In this document: positions 11,538 to 28,778 of the stretch, piece after piece
Layout: every line of letters starts with the position of its first letter
Numbering within the stretch: position 1 is the stretch's first letter
Virus record (IMG/VR): IMGVR_UViG_3300036816_000054
Location: 1-30,725 of that record
Source: a virus
DNA: 30,725 nucleotides
Reading direction: 5' to 3' (one strand)
Made by a program: the position numbers and the translations under genes
Notes under the pieces: generated by a model
The model's database searches: none
What the model was told of the DNA's origin: nothing
Seen by the model: only the letters and a program-made list of their open reading frames with translations

Positions 11538-12275
11538 TTAGGAAATTGCCTGTCTTATTTTTTCCCTAATCATGACGTAGCGTTCTCCTTTCCTGGATGC
11601 GCCAATCTCCATCAACTGATTTACGCCAAATTTTGTTCTTCGCTCAGGTCGCGATAATTGACGAACCATTAAAGCAAATAACGACTTCCCACGTAAAAAC
11701 CTACCAAAATCGTCATGAATCATGTTAAAAAACTGTTGCGGATATTGTTCCGCTTCTGCAAGTTCAACTGATGAGTTATAAAACTCATTATCATTGAGAA
11801 CCCTATGAGGGGTTTCTCGATAAGATAACTCATTTCCACTTTGCGATCTGGATACTGTTAATGCATACCAATGAACAAACTTTCTCAACTCAGAATTGAA
11901 TGTTTCAACTTCATCCCCAGACATTAGTTCGAGTAAACCTCCATCAATAAATATATCATTTTCTATTGAATACCCCTCCGTCATAATTACATCATCCAAC
12001 CCTTCCTCAGGGCCGTAGTATACCCAAAGATCTTTATCTACTACAAATGCCACTGGAGCGGATATAGGCTCATTTTTGATACGTTCTCTAAGTTGAAGAA
12101 CCGCCCACTTATTTCCTGCAGGCAGCATATCAATGCCAATATCATCGAGATCGCTTTCTATGCGTCTATAAAAAACAATATCATCCCTTCCTTCCACAAG
12201 TATCGTTGGAATACTTGTATTTTTCAGCAAAGCGAATAACTCATCCACAGTGGGTCTAGCTTTAGAAGTAGTCAT
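11538..12275 (-). CDS. DUF4435/TOPRIM nuclease, AriB-like PARIS effector
   Basis: The 245-residue protein has the TOPRIM pattern of DUF4435: a strand ending ILVEGRDDIVFYRR with the catalytic-type Glu at residue 28 and Asp at 31-32, then VAFVVDKDLW with Asp80-x-Asp82, then the family-typical GYSIENDIF near residue 100. In PARIS systems the AriB effector is a DUF4435 protein that is held by the ATPase AriA, released when a phage anti-restriction protein is sensed, and then cleaves host tRNA. Here it starts three bases after the ATPase stop, in the ariA-ariB order. At 245 residues it is shorter than the roughly 300-residue AriB I remember. AT content is much higher than in V or S, which suggests transfer. 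An OLD-like two-gene system is the alternative. Confidence 0.72.
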   Translation of the reverse strand: MTTSKARPTVDELFALLKNTSIPTILVEGRDDIVFYRRIESDLDDIGIDMLPAGNKWAVLQLRERIKNEPISAPVAFVVDKDLWVYYGPEEGLDDVIMTEGYSIENDIFIDGGLLELMSGDEVETFNSELRKFVHWYALTVSRSQSGNELSYRETPHRVLNDNEFYNSSVELAEAEQYPQQFFNMIHDDFGRFLRGKSLFALMVRQLSRPERRTKFGVNQLMEIGASRKGERYVMIREKIRQAIS

Positions 12276-12278
12276 CTT

Positions 12279-13385
12279 CTACTCACCCCTATCCATACCT
12301 ATGGCAACTTCTTTATCAGGATATTTCCCATAAATAAATGGCGAGTGCGTTGCAAATATAAATTGATTTGTTGGGTTTTGATTTTTTAAAATTTTATACA
12401 ACTGCCTTTGCCAATCGACATGTAAACTTAACTCAGGCTCATCAATAAATATTATTGCGTTTTGATGGAACGCATTGTAGCAAATGAAACTCAACATTTG
12501 TTTTTCACCAGCAGATAATACATCACTGGTTACTGCCTCTGCAGCATCACCAAAACTTAGACGCCTATCAAATGTTATACCAGCATGTTGAAATAATTTC
12601 TCAACCAGTAATCTTACTGCATCCAACGGCCTCATCGATTCAGTTCTGAACGTCTCGATTTTTTCAATTTCCTGTCTGGTTTCTGCTAAGAGAGTGTCTG
12701 CATCCCCCGCTTGTCCATTTGACTTCTGATGCTGTTTTATTTTTTCAATAACACTTCGAGAAACATCGGCCTGAAATATATTTATCTCTTCTGAAAGCGA
12801 GGCGAATTTTTTCAAAAGAATACTATTAATATCTTGACTTGAAATTGCCGCAACAAATAGATGAGCTTCGTTTGACATTTTATTCGAAAGTGAAGTTAAT
12901 ACATCATCAATATCACCACCTGAGCGATTACCTTGTCTTGGTTTTGTTTTTCGAGTTACATCTAGCGAAAATCCTCCCTCAATTCGTCTAAAGGTTGGGA
13001 AGAAAATAGAACTACCACAACTTATCAAGTACGAAGCTGCTTGATCTTCTGAAGATTCAATCCATTCATTATTTTCCTCTGGGCCGCCATCATCAAATAA
13101 ATAACTCTCACCAGTATTTGTATGAAGTTCAACGCGACAATATAAATGCGCCAATTTAGTAACAACGCAAGTATATTCACTGGTAACCAAAGTGCATGTT
13201 TTAAAATTAACCTCTTTCAAGGCCCAATAAATATTCCCACTAATTATGAACCAAGCTAATTTTAAAATAGTAGTCTTGCCAGAACCGTTGCGACCAGTGA
13301 TAATATTCAAATCCTGATGAAAATCATAACGCACGGGATTTGGATTACCAAACAAACCTATTACACTTATTGACTCCAATCTCAT
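12279..13385 (-). CDS. SMC/ABC-type ATPase, AriA-like PARIS sensor
   Basis: The 368-residue protein is an AAA_15/AAA_21-type ATPase. It has Walker A GRNGSGKTT (Lys37), an ABC-type signature LSAGEKQM near residue 290, Walker B AIIFIDEPELSLH (Asp315-Glu316) and a switch histidine in FATHSPF (His347). The middle, about residues 170-260, is Lys/Glu/Gln-rich and probably a short coiled coil. With the DUF4435 gene directly downstream, the pair has the PARIS (AriA-AriB) architecture. It ends about 20 residues after the H-loop, so it is compact compared with the roughly 450-residue AriA I recall. Retron- or OLD-associated ATPases look similar, so the system name rests on the partner gene. The start has a GGAG-containing leader (AAGGAGTCAAG). 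Confidence 0.72.
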   Translation of the reverse strand: MRLESISVIGLFGNPNPVRYDFHQDLNIITGRNGSGKTTILKLAWFIISGNIYWALKEVNFKTCTLVTSEYTCVVTKLAHLYCRVELHTNTGESYLFDDGGPEENNEWIESSEDQAASYLISCGSSIFFPTFRRIEGGFSLDVTRKTKPRQGNRSGGDIDDVLTSLSNKMSNEAHLFVAAISSQDINSILLKKFASLSEEINIFQADVSRSVIEKIKQHQKSNGQAGDADTLLAETRQEIEKIETFRTESMRPLDAVRLLVEKLFQHAGITFDRRLSFGDAAEAVTSDVLSAGEKQMLSFICYNAFHQNAIIFIDEPELSLHVDWQRQLYKILKNQNPTNQFIFATHSPFIYGKYPDKEVAIGMDRGE

Positions 13386-22280: not shown

Positions 22281-22612
22281 CATCATCGACCGCCTCAGAA
22301 GCCGCACACGCGACGCAACAATCGCCCCGACGTCATCACAGACCCGCGAGCCAGCAACGCCACCACGACGCGCTCAGGCGCATAAAATTAAATGCTGTTA
22401 CGCGTTCTGGCGCGCAATGCTTTCCCCGCCACGCCTGCCCGCTTAATGGGTCGCTTTTAATGCAGATGCATTTGAATTTCAAAGCCGCGCAGCCGCTGAC
22501 TTATCACTCAAAATTCGGGCGTTACAAATAGATGCAAACTCATTCAAATGAATGCACAAAAAGGGCATAAGTGGTTTCTGTTCTTAAATTTTGCCCATCT
22601 GTAAAAAAATCA
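22281..22612. other. Gene-free interval around cos
   Basis: About 330 bases without a convincing gene. It holds the cos site and then an AT-richer stretch with TGCATTTGAAT near 22466 and a partly complementary ATTCAAATGAATGCA near 22543. These may be terminase or packaging elements, since P2 needs about 125 bp around cos, or the join with the cargo island. The short frame at 22261-22446 is not gene-like. Confidence 0.6.
22417..22435 (-). other. cos: cos site (19-nt cohesive end)
   Basis: The minus strand reads GGCGTGGCGGGGAAAGCAT, differing at two positions from the P2 cohesive end GGCGAGGCGGGGAAAGCAC as remembered. The next bases (TGCGCGCCAGA) also resemble the P2 left end. Its place between Q and the tin/old-type locus is exactly that of P2 cos. 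Terminase gpP-gpM would cut here. Confidence 0.88.
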
Positions 22613-23698
22613 TTAGAAACTCAACTCTCTTTGAGCGCTTTCTGTGCACAAAACTGTTCCAGATAAGGTATCAAGAACTCCTGCAGCAACAGCTTGAGCC
22701 AATTTACAAGGAACGGCATTACCTATCTGCCGCCATACAGACGAGTTTTTACCTGCAAACTCATAGTTGCTTGGAAATGTTTGGATTAAAATCGCTTCAT
22801 CTATTGTCAACCGACGTAAGTTATTAGGTACGTCATGCATTGATTTCGGATCACCACCACTCATCAAATGATTATGATAAGTTTCAATATAGCTAATAGC
22901 GCCACTATATAGATGTTCTTCATCAATTATAGGGGTTCGGTTTCCACCCATTGATGCCGCTATAGTTGATGCAAATCCATCAGGATTAATTGGCCGTCCC
23001 TGACCATTAAACATCATTCCGGCGTACGGTGATTTTCTCAAAACCGGTTTTGCGGCATTTGTAATTCTTGCATTGCAAACCCGAGGGTTAGTTATAGTCC
23101 CAGCCCTTCCCAAAGGACGAATAACTTCACCAACTGTTGGAGATAAACATTTATAGTTCAGTATTGCTTGTTCAACTAATTTCGCGCTTTCTGCTGTTTT
23201 AAAACCTATAAAAAACATACGCTCACGATTTTGAGGAACACCAAAGTCTTTAGAGTTCAAGATCAATAATTTCGTAAAATAGCCTAGACTTTCTGCCGTT
23301 TTAAATAACTCTGTTCTTACTGCTTCAAACTTTGATAAAGAAGCTAGTGCTTTTACATTTTCCATAACGAAGCATTGCGGTCGAACAATTTCAACTGCTT
23401 GCATGAAAGACCATACTAATTTACTACGAGGATCATGGGCATCCATTTTTCCAGCAACTGAGAATCCCTGACATGGCGGTCCACCAAAGACACACGCCAC
23501 ATTCTTCATCTCCTCAAGATCTGACAAATACTCTTCAATACCACCACAGACTATGTGTGATTCGTGATTGAGCTTAAATGTTTCACAAGCGTCTTTATCT
23601 TTATCATTAGCCCATATGGTATCAAACCCAGCATTTCTGAAGCCTACATCCATACCTCCAGCTCCTGAAAAGAGACTAACTGCTGAGTATTTGTTCAT
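22613..23698 (-). CDS. DNA (cytosine-5)-methyltransferase
   Basis: The 361-residue protein has all main C5-methyltransferase motifs: SAM-binding LFSGAGGMDVGF (motif I, residues 9-20), GGPPCQGFS with catalytic Cys76 (IV), FVMENVKAL with Glu113-Asn114-Val115 (VI), PQNRERMFFIGF (VIII, Arg158/Arg160) and RQIGNAVPCKLAQAVA near the end (X). The target recognition region lies at about 185-285. It is divergent from a small HTH gene and an endonuclease gene, so it should protect the host and prophage DNA from that enzyme. Base composition is clearly AT-richer than in Q or A, indicating acquisition. It lies in the locus that holds tin/old in P2. The recognition sequence cannot be read from the protein. 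Confidence 0.93.
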   Translation of the reverse strand: MNKYSAVSLFSGAGGMDVGFRNAGFDTIWANDKDKDACETFKLNHESHIVCGGIEEYLSDLEEMKNVACVFGGPPCQGFSVAGKMDAHDPRSKLVWSFMQAVEIVRPQCFVMENVKALASLSKFEAVRTELFKTAESLGYFTKLLILNSKDFGVPQNRERMFFIGFKTAESAKLVEQAILNYKCLSPTVGEVIRPLGRAGTITNPRVCNARITNAAKPVLRKSPYAGMMFNGQGRPINPDGFASTIAASMGGNRTPIIDEEHLYSGAISYIETYHNHLMSGGDPKSMHDVPNNLRRLTIDEAILIQTFPSNYEFAGKNSSVWRQIGNAVPCKLAQAVAAGVLDTLSGTVLCTESAQRELSF

Positions 23699-23793
23699 TA
23701 ATTCAACACCTAAATTATTCGATTTTGGAATAAAACACCATGATAGGTAACGATAGACCAGGATGCAAGTTGCGCAGGGTCAAATCAACCAAC
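23699..23793. promoter_or_regulatory. Divergent promoter region of the R-M module
   Basis: The methyltransferase gene and the HTH-endonuclease pair diverge from this 95-base AT-rich interval, so both promoters and any controller-protein boxes should be here. No clear C-box dyad or strong -35/-10 pair could be picked by eye. Confidence 0.45.
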
Positions 23794-24075
23794 ATGGCAA
23801 AACGAAAACCAACTATACATGATCATCGATACAGGTGCCTAGTCCAGCATCTCCTCAAATTACGTAAAGACGCGAACCTTTCTCAATCAGAATTGGCGGT
23901 TGTTCTCGGTCTCTCTCAATCAGATATCTCGAAAATTGAAAGTTTTGAAAGACGATTGGATGCATTGGAGCTATTCGAGATATTGGAAGTTCTAGCGAAT
24001 CGGCTAGATCTTTCGATGGATATATTATGGAAGGATATCTATGAAAGTATCAGTGAACCACGACAAGGCTTATGA
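23794..24075 (+). CDS. HTH regulator, probable R-M controller protein
   Basis: From the ATG at 23794 the product has 93 residues, MAKRKPTIHDHRYRCLVQHL onward. An XRE-type helix-turn-helix is visible at about residues 31-55: LSQSELAVVLGLSQSDISKI. The frame continues upstream to an ATG at 23740 (111 residues), but the shorter form fits the usual 80-100-residue size of controller proteins. It overlaps the endonuclease gene by 35 bases and diverges from the methyltransferase, the standard C-R/M layout in which a C protein delays endonuclease expression until the DNA is methylated. The role is inferred from context; a general XRE repressor is the alternative. Confidence 0.78.
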   Translation: MAKRKPTIHDHRYRCLVQHLLKLRKDANLSQSELAVVLGLSQSDISKIESFERRLDALELFEILEVLANRLDLSMDILWKDIYESISEPRQGL

Positions 24076-25093
24076 AGTAATTATTTCGGCAATAGATGAA
24101 GCTAAAAATCTTACGAGTTGTCACACGGCTCATTCGGCTTTAATAAGTAGCGTAATATTAGGCTCACATCTGACTTATCGTTACATTCTAGTCACAGGCT
24201 TACTAGCAAAAGCAACAAATAGTGATGTTAACCCATTGGTTTTACAAGCAAAAGCCGAAGTGGATGGCGCATATGATGCAAGAAGTCTATGCCATTCAGT
24301 TGTCGTTGGCAGAGTTGAAACTAAATTTCTAGAAGGTAAATTAGGTGCATCCAATGAACCCTTCCTCAATAAACCAGCAAGATATACTGTGCATTCTCCT
24401 GATAATCCTGTTCGCGGTGGTAATGATAAAGAAATCCAGCTTAAATCCATTGAGATCCTACAAGACGCAAAAACCAGTTCCCAAGCGTATGAAATGCTTG
24501 TTGCCGCAATGTATTATACTCTGCAAAGACCAAATAGAGTAATATTACCCACTGCTAATGACTTCAATTTCCAAGAAACCATTCATGCTATGGTAGAAAA
24601 TGCATGTGATGGTGAGAGTTGTGCAATAGTTTCAGCTTTAGCTCTCTTTTTATTGGCAGAAAAAAATGAATGGCAAATTAAAGCTCATCCAGTTAACCAA
24701 GCTGGCAGTTCCTCAAATGAAGTTTTAGATATTGATGTCTACTGCCATGATACTATTTTTCTTTCAATAGAAGTTAAAGACAAAATATTCAGTTCCCATG
24801 ACGTTCATCACGCTATTACCAAAGCAGCAGCTAATGGTGTTTCAAAAGTAATTTTTCTCAAAGGCCCGAGAGCAATAGCATTTAACACTACTGAGTATGA
24901 TGCAATTATCAGTGCTGCAAGACATGGTGTTTCACTAACTTTCAGTAATGTTACAACGTTCGCTATGACATGCTACTCTCTCGCAAATGAAACTAGCAAT
25001 TCAATGATAATAGCATATATCAATCAGATAGTTAAAGACGTAAGAGCAAAGGATAGTACCGTCGAATATCTCACAGGGTTGTTCAGCGAGTAA
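24041..25093 (+). CDS. Type II restriction endonuclease, SacI-like
   Basis: The 350-residue protein resembles, from memory, the SacI restriction endonuclease family (RE_SacI): TYRYILVTGLLAKAT-like text near residue 46, EVDGAYDARSLCHSVVV near 73, LGASNEPFLNKPARYTV near 102 and NPVRGGNDKEIQL near 123. A PD-(D/E)xK-type site is visible as LDIDVY (Asp230/Asp232) followed by IEVKDK (Glu244-x-Lys246). The ATG has a good AAGGATATCT leader and lies inside the HTH gene, so translation is coupled. With the methyltransferase it forms a complete type II system. SacI cuts GAGCTC; whether this enzyme shares that site is not known. Low GC sets it apart from phage genes. Confidence 0.78.
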   Translation: MKVSVNHDKAYEVIISAIDEAKNLTSCHTAHSALISSVILGSHLTYRYILVTGLLAKATNSDVNPLVLQAKAEVDGAYDARSLCHSVVVGRVETKFLEGKLGASNEPFLNKPARYTVHSPDNPVRGGNDKEIQLKSIEILQDAKTSSQAYEMLVAAMYYTLQRPNRVILPTANDFNFQETIHAMVENACDGESCAIVSALALFLLAEKNEWQIKAHPVNQAGSSSNEVLDIDVYCHDTIFLSIEVKDKIFSSHDVHHAITKAAANGVSKVIFLKGPRAIAFNTTEYDAIISAARHGVSLTFSNVTTFAMTCYSLANETSNSMIIAYINQIVKDVRAKDSTVEYLTGLFSE

Positions 25094-25101
25094 ACATGTT
25101 G

Positions 25102-25123
25102 GAGCGGATAAAAAGATCCGCTC
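25102..25123 (+). terminator. Hairpin after the endonuclease gene
   Basis: GAGCGGAT-AAAAAG-ATCCGCTC is a perfect 8-bp stem with a six-base loop nine bases after the endonuclease stop. It lies between the convergent endonuclease and A genes. No T run follows on either strand, so it is a weak or atypical terminator or an RNA 3'-end stabiliser. Confidence 0.5.
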
Positions 25124-25175
25124 TCACACGCGCGTCAATGTTGAATCATAAATATTTAGTTCTCCTCAACCTTAT

Positions 25176-27161
25176 TTATATCCAAACCATCTTCTCGGAG
25201 AGAGATTCCAAATGTATATCAGCGAGTTTTTGGGGTAACTCAACTATTGATAATTCCCCATTGACTCCGCCCAACCCACAGTTATTGACAGGACTCCGAG
25301 GCGCGGCAATGCCGCTTTTTAAAGTCAAAGGCTCAACGGCTAAAAGCTTTGGAACGATGCGCCATTCGGCTGTGCGTGTAACGTGTACCAGCTCAGAGCC
25401 CAAGTGCGGCGCGTAGATGCCCACGACTCTCTCTATGTCCTCTTCGTAGGCGTTAACCTCGTCAGTCACGTTGCGAGCCACACGGACGGTCTGGCTATCG
25501 CGTGGAACATTCGCCCCACCCTGCGCTGCGATATACAGGTCAAATTCACCTTCATCAGCTGCAGCCCTCGCCGCCTCGACACGCTCATCGAATTCATCAG
25601 CAATGCTTACGCCGCGAGGCAGTTTGCGCAGCTCGCGATATGCTCCCATCGTTGGCAGGCCAATAGATTTGAATTGCGGGATGCGCCACGTTGACGCCCA
25701 TGCGGTTACAGCAGCGGCCGTATCAGTCAGAGGCTTGCCTGTGTCGTGATCAACCTGACCATCGAGCGCGTAACCATCGATATTCTTAGCAATGTATTTT
25801 GCGATGTAACCGGCTGCGCCACCTTGATTGAGGTGTTTCGCTTCAAAGCGCTGTGTTGCAGCGCCCTTTTCATCGCCATCTTCTTTTAAGGCATAACGGC
25901 GCATGATTTCGGTGATGTGTTTACGTTGTTCTGGTTTGCAAAAAAGCATCATGTGCCAGTGCGGCGTTCCGTCATGATGCGGCTCGACAACGCGCATCCC
26001 GTAGACCTGCAAATCGTTATCTTTAAAAGCTGTACGCATCAGGCTCCAGATACGGCACAAATACCGCTGTCCATCCTTCGGCGTAAAGGCGGTTTCATTC
26101 CAGCCGTGATTAAGTTGCACTGTCTTTTTATCGCCCTTTCCTACCTGACGCGTCGGGTGATACTTCGATGGCGTGGTGATAGTGATAAACATCCCGACGT
26201 CACCATGACCGGCCGCATAGCGTTCAATGCCTGCAATAGTGTTCATCAGTTCCATACGACGGATTTCTGGGTTTGAAATACTTCCCATGACTTTGCTGAT
26301 GAGATCGATGCGCTCACCAGTCACTTTGTTTTCCAGTTCGCACGATTTGAGGTATTCGAGGTTAGCCAGGCGGCGAGAATGCACGTCGCGGATCGCCGTT
26401 CTGCTGGCGTATGGAGAACGGTCTTTATTTACCTCGCCGGCTGCAATCAGCAATGCCTCGTGCCAGCGCATACGCTGCGCCTTAAACTGGTTAATCCACC
26501 ATTCATCGTTAATCAGACGAGCAATAGCGGAAAATGCCTGGCGAATTGTGATCTGTCCTTTGCGGTATTTTTTCCAGAACATCGGGGTGATATTGAATGC
26601 ACGCGCTGCACCAGCAACGTGACCATATAAATGCGCCTGTGCCTCATCGGTGAAAAGAGTCTCTTTATCGCCGTGAGCATCTGCCCAAGCGTCGCTTAAT
26701 TCTTCATAAGCAACATAGAGCTGCGAAGCGACACGAGCTGCAAACTTTTTGAGCGCCTTGTCACTCATACCAGGTAAACGCGAATAGCTTTCTCGCTCGC
26801 TCATGAAGAGTAGCGATGCGGTCTCGTTCATTCCATTAAGCTGATTGACCCGCTCAAGACGCGGCACCACCCTTTGCTCGACGGTGTTCTTAAGGAAATA
26901 GAAACCATGAAGTGGGCTTTTAGTACGACGGATAAAGTCATACCGAGAGTTGAACAATGTTTTTAAGACGTATGGCAGGCGATTAATTTTACCTAAAACA
27001 CCTTGCACCTGACGGAATTCGCCACGTGTAAGGGGTCTGTCACGGCCAATTGCAGAGCGTGGAGCATTCCAGGGATAAGCACCGACGAATGTATCATCGG
27101 TGCGCTTCGGGAAAGGAGGCGGTGGCGAGGGGGCAATACGCCCCCGAGGTTCAACGGCCAT
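25176..27161 (-). CDS. A: Replication initiator gpA (HUH endonuclease), altered C-terminus
   Basis: The 661-residue protein is the rolling-circle initiator of P2-type phages. It nicks the origin, which in P2 lies inside gene A. It follows P2 gpA closely up to PLTLKSGIAAPRSPVNNCG at about residue 629. Visible motifs are the metal-binding HUH-type HWHMMLF in VEPHHDGTPHWHMM and the paired tyrosines of AAGYIAKYIAKNIDGY at about 450/454. P2 gpA is 761 residues: after NNCG it has about 105 more, replaced here by 32 unrelated ones ending EKMVWI. The DNA becomes AT-rich at the same point, so the cargo insertion seems to have replaced the C-terminus. The catalytic core is intact. The start overlaps the DUF5405 gene by 11 bases. 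Confidence 0.95.
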   Translation of the reverse strand: MAVEPRGRIAPSPPPPFPKRTDDTFVGAYPWNAPRSAIGRDRPLTRGEFRQVQGVLGKINRLPYVLKTLFNSRYDFIRRTKSPLHGFYFLKNTVEQRVVPRLERVNQLNGMNETASLLFMSERESYSRLPGMSDKALKKFAARVASQLYVAYEELSDAWADAHGDKETLFTDEAQAHLYGHVAGAARAFNITPMFWKKYRKGQITIRQAFSAIARLINDEWWINQFKAQRMRWHEALLIAAGEVNKDRSPYASRTAIRDVHSRRLANLEYLKSCELENKVTGERIDLISKVMGSISNPEIRRMELMNTIAGIERYAAGHGDVGMFITITTPSKYHPTRQVGKGDKKTVQLNHGWNETAFTPKDGQRYLCRIWSLMRTAFKDNDLQVYGMRVVEPHHDGTPHWHMMLFCKPEQRKHITEIMRRYALKEDGDEKGAATQRFEAKHLNQGGAAGYIAKYIAKNIDGYALDGQVDHDTGKPLTDTAAAVTAWASTWRIPQFKSIGLPTMGAYRELRKLPRGVSIADEFDERVEAARAAADEGEFDLYIAAQGGANVPRDSQTVRVARNVTDEVNAYEEDIERVVGIYAPHLGSELVHVTRTAEWRIVPKLLAVEPLTLKSGIAAPRSPVNNCGLGGVNGELSIVELPQKLADIHLESLSEKMVWI

Positions 27162-28502: not shown

Positions 28503-28778
28503 ATGGAAAAGCAAAAAATCAAAACTTTCCTCAACCAGGCGAAAGAATCACGTACTGAACATTCAGCTGAAGATCGCCTTTTCGCACTCGAAGTTATGGC
28601 TTGCGCTCTTGGTGCATCCCTTGAGGGAGAAAGCAGAGATAAATTTCTGACGATGATGAATTCAATTTCAGAAAACATTAATCCGATGTCTGATACCGCG
28701 ATTAAAGCAATCGCCGATCTGAACGTACTCAGCGCTGACTTCAAGACAATTTCCAATCAGCTTGCAGCTGGGAAATAA
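28503..28778 (+). CDS. Unrecognised small protein, opposite strand in early operon
   Basis: I do not recognise this 91-residue protein. It is acidic, predicted helical and lacks membrane segments: MEKQKIKTFLNQAKESRTEH, then AEDRLFALEVMACALGASLE, then MSDTAIKAIADLNVLSADFK. The start has an excellent GGAGAAGAT ribosome-binding site, and a plausible promoter lies upstream. It runs against the surrounding early genes, fills the 340-base gap between the Fil-like and orf78-like genes, and overlaps the 3' end of the latter by 38 bases. That is the layout of a gene expressed from the prophage (moron). A minus-strand frame over the same bases looks less protein-like. Lysogenic conversion or defence roles are only speculation. 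Confidence 0.65.
   Translation: MEKQKIKTFLNQAKESRTEHSAEDRLFALEVMACALGASLEGESRDKFLTMMNSISENINPMSDTAIKAIADLNVLSADFKTISNQLAAGK

Follow-up and report, generated by a model that had tools for sequence, protein, structure and literature searches.

A probable EcoT38I-type restriction-modification system in the cos-ori cargo slot of an enterobacterial P2-like prophage

What does a P2-like prophage carry between its portal gene and its replication gene, how might such cargo be brought into operation in a new cell, and what allows it to be exchanged? The locus considered here lies in a virus record of 30,725 nucleotides (IMG/VR IMGVR_UViG_3300036816_000054), which was analysed over its whole length and is called the window below. 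These 30.7 kb constitute a P2-like genome, with integrase, repressor, gene A, terminase and portal; the left two thirds match P2-like phages of Salmonella, Klebsiella and Enterobacter at 77-86%. Three genes with a GC content of 39%, as against 54% for the rest of the window (a difference that is consistent with import), are flanked by the portal gene Q and cos on one side and by gene A on the other. They thus occupy the cos-proximal hotspot of P2-like phages (between genes A and Q, adjoining cos), and the P2 annotation puts tin and old at the same place, as the preliminary description had said. Our reading, to which we give about 90% probability, is that these genes make up a complete type IIP restriction-modification system of the EcoT38I kind that is probably active, and that an enterobacterial P2-like prophage carries it as lysogenic-conversion cargo in a variable slot between cos and ori.

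The first of the three, M (22613..23698, minus strand), encodes a C5-cytosine DNA methyltransferase of 361 aa (Pfam PF00145, DNA_methylase, 6e-66) of the EcoT38I type. C (23794..24075, plus strand) encodes an HTH controller protein of 93 aa (HTH_3, 9e-9; PADLOC Control_protein, a weak match), and R (24041..25093, plus strand) a PD-(D/E)xK endonuclease of 350 aa that belongs to the SacI family and, within it, to the EcoT38I type. The Pfam RE_SacI profile (PF09566) is matched by R at 6e-75 from position 2 to position 276 of its 276 positions, with 253 bits against a curated cut-off of 19.3. All three frames are open and of full length, those of C and R overlap by 35 bp (24041-24075), and the catalytic motifs are retained: PCQ and ENV in M, and E-x-K (IEVKDK) in R. 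The preliminary description had proposed a complete type II module in which a methyltransferase gene diverges from an HTH gene overlapping a SacI-like endonuclease, and had held that inactivating mutations in the endonuclease would tell against it; the arrangement and the family assignment are borne out, and R, open and with its E-x-K in place, shows no such damage. A mechanical call had put the start of C at 23740. It was dropped in favour of the ATG at 23794 (MAKR...), because the frame that runs from the upstream ATG hits a TGA in the related phage L001 (IMG/VR phage 2751185922) and because the RefSeq start in E. coli lies at the same point. Whole-length family matches, together with an identical order of the three genes in relatives, put the module far beyond chance. 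A novel endonuclease family for R, also considered, is ruled out by the matches to PF09566 and to the structure 7e8r.

The prophage holds other genes worth recording. A PARIS-like gene pair lies beside the baseplate spike gene (11538-13385, minus strand): an AriA-like AAA ATPase (12279-13385, minus strand; PADLOC, 7e-29) and an AriB-like DUF4435 protein (11538-12275, minus strand; 4e-9). With a restriction-modification system in the same prophage, this may join to it a guard against anti-restriction proteins. Amid the minus-strand early genes, a 91-aa ORF on the plus strand (28503-28778) matches phrog_32592, of unknown function, in full.

To which system is the module related? A PDB search with R returned 7e8r (EcoT38I) as the sole match, at E 1e-139, with residues 1-349 aligned and 63% identity. 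The neighbours of R tell the same story: the divergent methyltransferase, encoded on the opposite strand to R, is 78% identical to its E. coli counterpart (WP_071791628), and the C gene in the gap between M and R, overlapping R by its 35 bp, is 75% identical to the E. coli HTH protein. For gene A, which serves as a yardstick for the phage backbone, the corresponding identity is 76%. Wherever the printed alignments allow a visual comparison, E. coli R (WP_000866882) and 7e8r do not differ, and in E. coli prophages that encode this R the module genes stand in the matching place, beside Q and A. The module is present in about 20 of 5426 E. coli genomes (79-85% query coverage, the next records dropping to 12%). 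EcoT38I reportedly recognises GRGCYC, lies between A and Q of a P2 prophage and has a gap of 330 nt between its divergent genes; the gap agrees with that of the locus L003, provided that M starts there at GTG 7328. The module is therefore of an already known type, published from a P2 prophage in 2003, and much less surprising than the preliminary description suggested.

The comparison with L001 is instructive: its gene A is 91% identical to that of the window, but R, M and C only 62%, 79% and 69%, so the cargo has diverged further than the phage backbone. Probably, to judge by these identities, the module has been exchanged, or has evolved faster, since the two phages parted. Farther afield, the order M-C-R recurs at four non-enterobacterial genome loci and on one viral contig. 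Among plasmid and phage records no close homologue of R was found; scanning genome contigs with R alone found nothing, and alignment gave only relatives of 36-49% identity. One EcoT38I-type module (L029, IMGVR_UViG_2740892449_000008) has both M and R split by frame changes, through decay or sequencing error. No C is detectable in the M-R gap of the distant SacI-family modules L005, L006, L007, L013, L025-L028 and L031, in some of which R and M are convergent, not divergent; the gaps of L005, L006, L007 and L013 suggest that C is part of only some of the family.

The sharp edges of the cargo matter more than the module that it happens to contain. On the Q side the edge is the end of the conserved cos region (cos core and end, 22419..22471), which matches the annotated cos of PSP3; ATGCAGATGCAT ends at 22471, and right after ATGCANNTGCAT, at the same nucleotide, 24 unrelated groups of cargo diverge. 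On the A side it is a conserved ori block within gene A (25276..25325, minus strand). P2 has its annotated replication nick site (29892) inside gene A, in the corresponding block; the equivalent position in the window is about 25297, and the edge at 25276 lies 21 nt past it. The fetched loci yield 132 occurrences of the block GCGCCTCGGAGTCCTGTCAATAACTGTGG, of which 129 are identical. Its codons are constrained as well: across 97 distinct sequences, usage is 99% fixed over the ten codons that immediately precede the edge and 56-76% fixed over most of the sequence farther upstream, which indicates that a DNA site is conserved and not the protein alone. Past the block, 102 sequences fall into 19 mutually unrelated continuations that start at one nucleotide. 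In most of the loci, all retrieved through their likeness in A or portal (some contigs being counted twice), similarity to the window ends at 22470-22473 and at 25276; the cargo of the window is accordingly 22472-25275. A few junctions retain remnants of the A tail, so that not every one is flush. Judged by these edges, the place reads as an exchange slot framed by cos and ori.

Gene A itself (25176..27161, minus strand; Phage_GPA, 2e-113) may bear the mark of such exchange. It encodes a replication nickase of 661 aa whose conserved part stops at the ori edge; the last 32 residues, after NNCG, come from the cargo side (25176-25275) and form a private tail. Past NNCG, the protein of most relatives runs on for 119-150 residues, values of 123-129 aa among them, and the window protein is short by about 125 C-terminal residues. 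The normal tail follows the block in 83 of the 102 sequences; in the 18 other continuations, that of the window included, A ends after a private tail. With at least 18 unrelated short tails on record, the C-terminus of A seems dispensable. How, then, does the cargo change? We regard as evenly poised the proposal that the slot is framed to the nucleotide by two essential cis sites, the cos end ATGCANNTGCAT and the rolling-circle ori in A, and that these near-invariant sites serve as homology arms (or that gpA takes part) in swapping whole defence cassettes, the price being a replaced, dispensable C-terminus of A. The data are compatible with homologous recombination and with a process mediated by gpA; the near-invariance of the blocks prevents crossovers within them from being mapped from sequence. 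What makes the exchange of defence genes at this locus so rapid is a question raised by Rousset et al. (2022; PMC9122126), who propose the cos ends together with a further homologous recombination at a place that they leave unspecified. For that second place, gene A offers a concrete candidate in its invariant ori block.

What DNA would the enzymes act on? Over the variable-domain region that determines specificity (residues 185-262), M is 91% identical to the E. coli EcoT38I-type methyltransferase (78% overall) and 94% identical to that of L001, from which the predicted site is GRGCYC. R is less uniform: across residues 131-210 and 279-350 it is about 49% identical to EcoT38I, which leaves room for drift in specificity, and the SacI family also includes SacI itself, whose site is GAGCTC. 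A system of the same type with another site (SacI-like GAGCTC only, or a changed one) is nonetheless quite unlikely, given the conservation of the M specificity region and three blocks of R that are unaltered from the EcoT38I type (HLTYRYIL, GASNEPFLNKPARY and KAHPVNQAGSSS). GRGCYC occurs 16 times in the window and not at all in the module. Its density of 0.57 per kb is no lower than that of module-free kin (0.54 per kb), so the sequence bears no sign of past restriction. That the module is inactive baggage is very unlikely: the split genes of L029 suggest that decay occurs, but here three full-length frames are open and both the catalytic motifs and the candidate operator are retained.

That candidate operator for the C protein, TTATTC-GATTTTG-GAATAA (23715..23733), lies about 60 bp upstream of C and 16 bp before the start of M, a position from which C, once bound, could block M. 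It has exact matches in L001 and in the E. coli modules; its core ATTCGATTTTGGAAT is identical in six close modules (L019, L021 and L023 among them), and at the corresponding place in four distant ones, from Enterovibrio, Nitrospinaceae, Legionellales and Thalassospira (L008, L009, L011, L012), stands ATGC-(G/T)A(T/A)TTTG-GCAT. Ten distinct modules thus keep the inverted repeat, AT(T/G)C-GATTTTG-G(A/C)AT, subject to a change of T:A to G:C that affects both sides in step; arms that change jointly around a nearly fixed spacer are what one expects of a dimer-binding site. In every operator-bearing module the genes run M-C-R and C overlaps R. A small HTH protein encoded upstream of R and a candidate operator with dyad symmetry place the module among C-controlled type II systems. 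A scan of the intergenic stretch for sigma-70 promoters, compared with shuffled sequence, gave none above chance. C.EcoT38I reportedly activates R directly and represses M, and for the window module we infer a similar dual role and the following order of expression. On entry, M would be transcribed first, from its own promoter, and the GRGCYC sites would be methylated; C would then build up, bind at 23715-23733, repress M and raise transcription of C and R, so that R would appear late; in the established state R would cut unmodified GRGCYC DNA of incoming phages. Timed expression, already suggested in the preliminary description, is plausible in view of the C-R overlap, the conserved candidate operator and known C proteins, and it is reasonable for C systems generally (PMC12707154).

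Could the circuit be simpler? C might solely repress M, with R rising as promoter competition ends and without direct activation. A single candidate operator, so close to M and so much farther from C, would suit that arrangement, and Kpn2I follows logic of this kind; the C site of Kpn2I, however, is inside the C gene and its R is transcribed separately, unlike the window module (PMC6237814). Repression alone, which also runs against the direct activation of R ascribed to C.EcoT38I, seems possible but doubtful. A different question is what the module is for. The preliminary description supposed that it would make the prophage addictive, and type II systems can indeed stabilise elements, and prophages have more than their share of them (PMC4176335). 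Yet loss of integrated prophages is rare, and the many unrelated kinds of cargo in the slot are in keeping with an exchange of defence genes; it is unlikely that the module is chiefly an addiction device, killing cells that lose the prophage, and post-segregational killing would be a conjecture on top of the protective role.

Placed among known systems, the module is closest to EcoT38I, described from a P2 prophage of E. coli TH38 (Kita et al. 2003; R structures 7e8r/7edb): the three genes, the divergent M, the C gene overlapping R, the Q-A locus and the whole-length homology are common to both, at 63-78% identity and in different P2-like phages. The title of a 2003 paper cited in PMC4176335 already speaks of horizontal transfer of EcoT38I by P2; the window module extends the system to another phage and adds a corrected C start, a candidate operator and a predicted site. 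In the E. coli EcoT38I-type loci gene A is of full length, whereas in the window it is cut at the ori edge. L001 shares gene order, operator and locus with the window but has the full A tail. R, compared with the SacI family through its profile (PF09566), matches the whole of it and is closer to EcoT38I. Kpn2I (Klimuk et al. 2018, PMC6237814) resembles the module in its divergent M and C and in a C site that controls the M promoter, and differs in the placement of that site within C and in transcribing C and R separately. Finally, the P2 old-tin hotspot (PMC9122126) is the same locus, between A and Q and adjoining cos; the passages of that paper on P2-hotspot examples list retrons and type III nucleases and neither name EcoT38I nor mention an ori edge, the edge that in the window coincides with a nearly invariant block of gene A.
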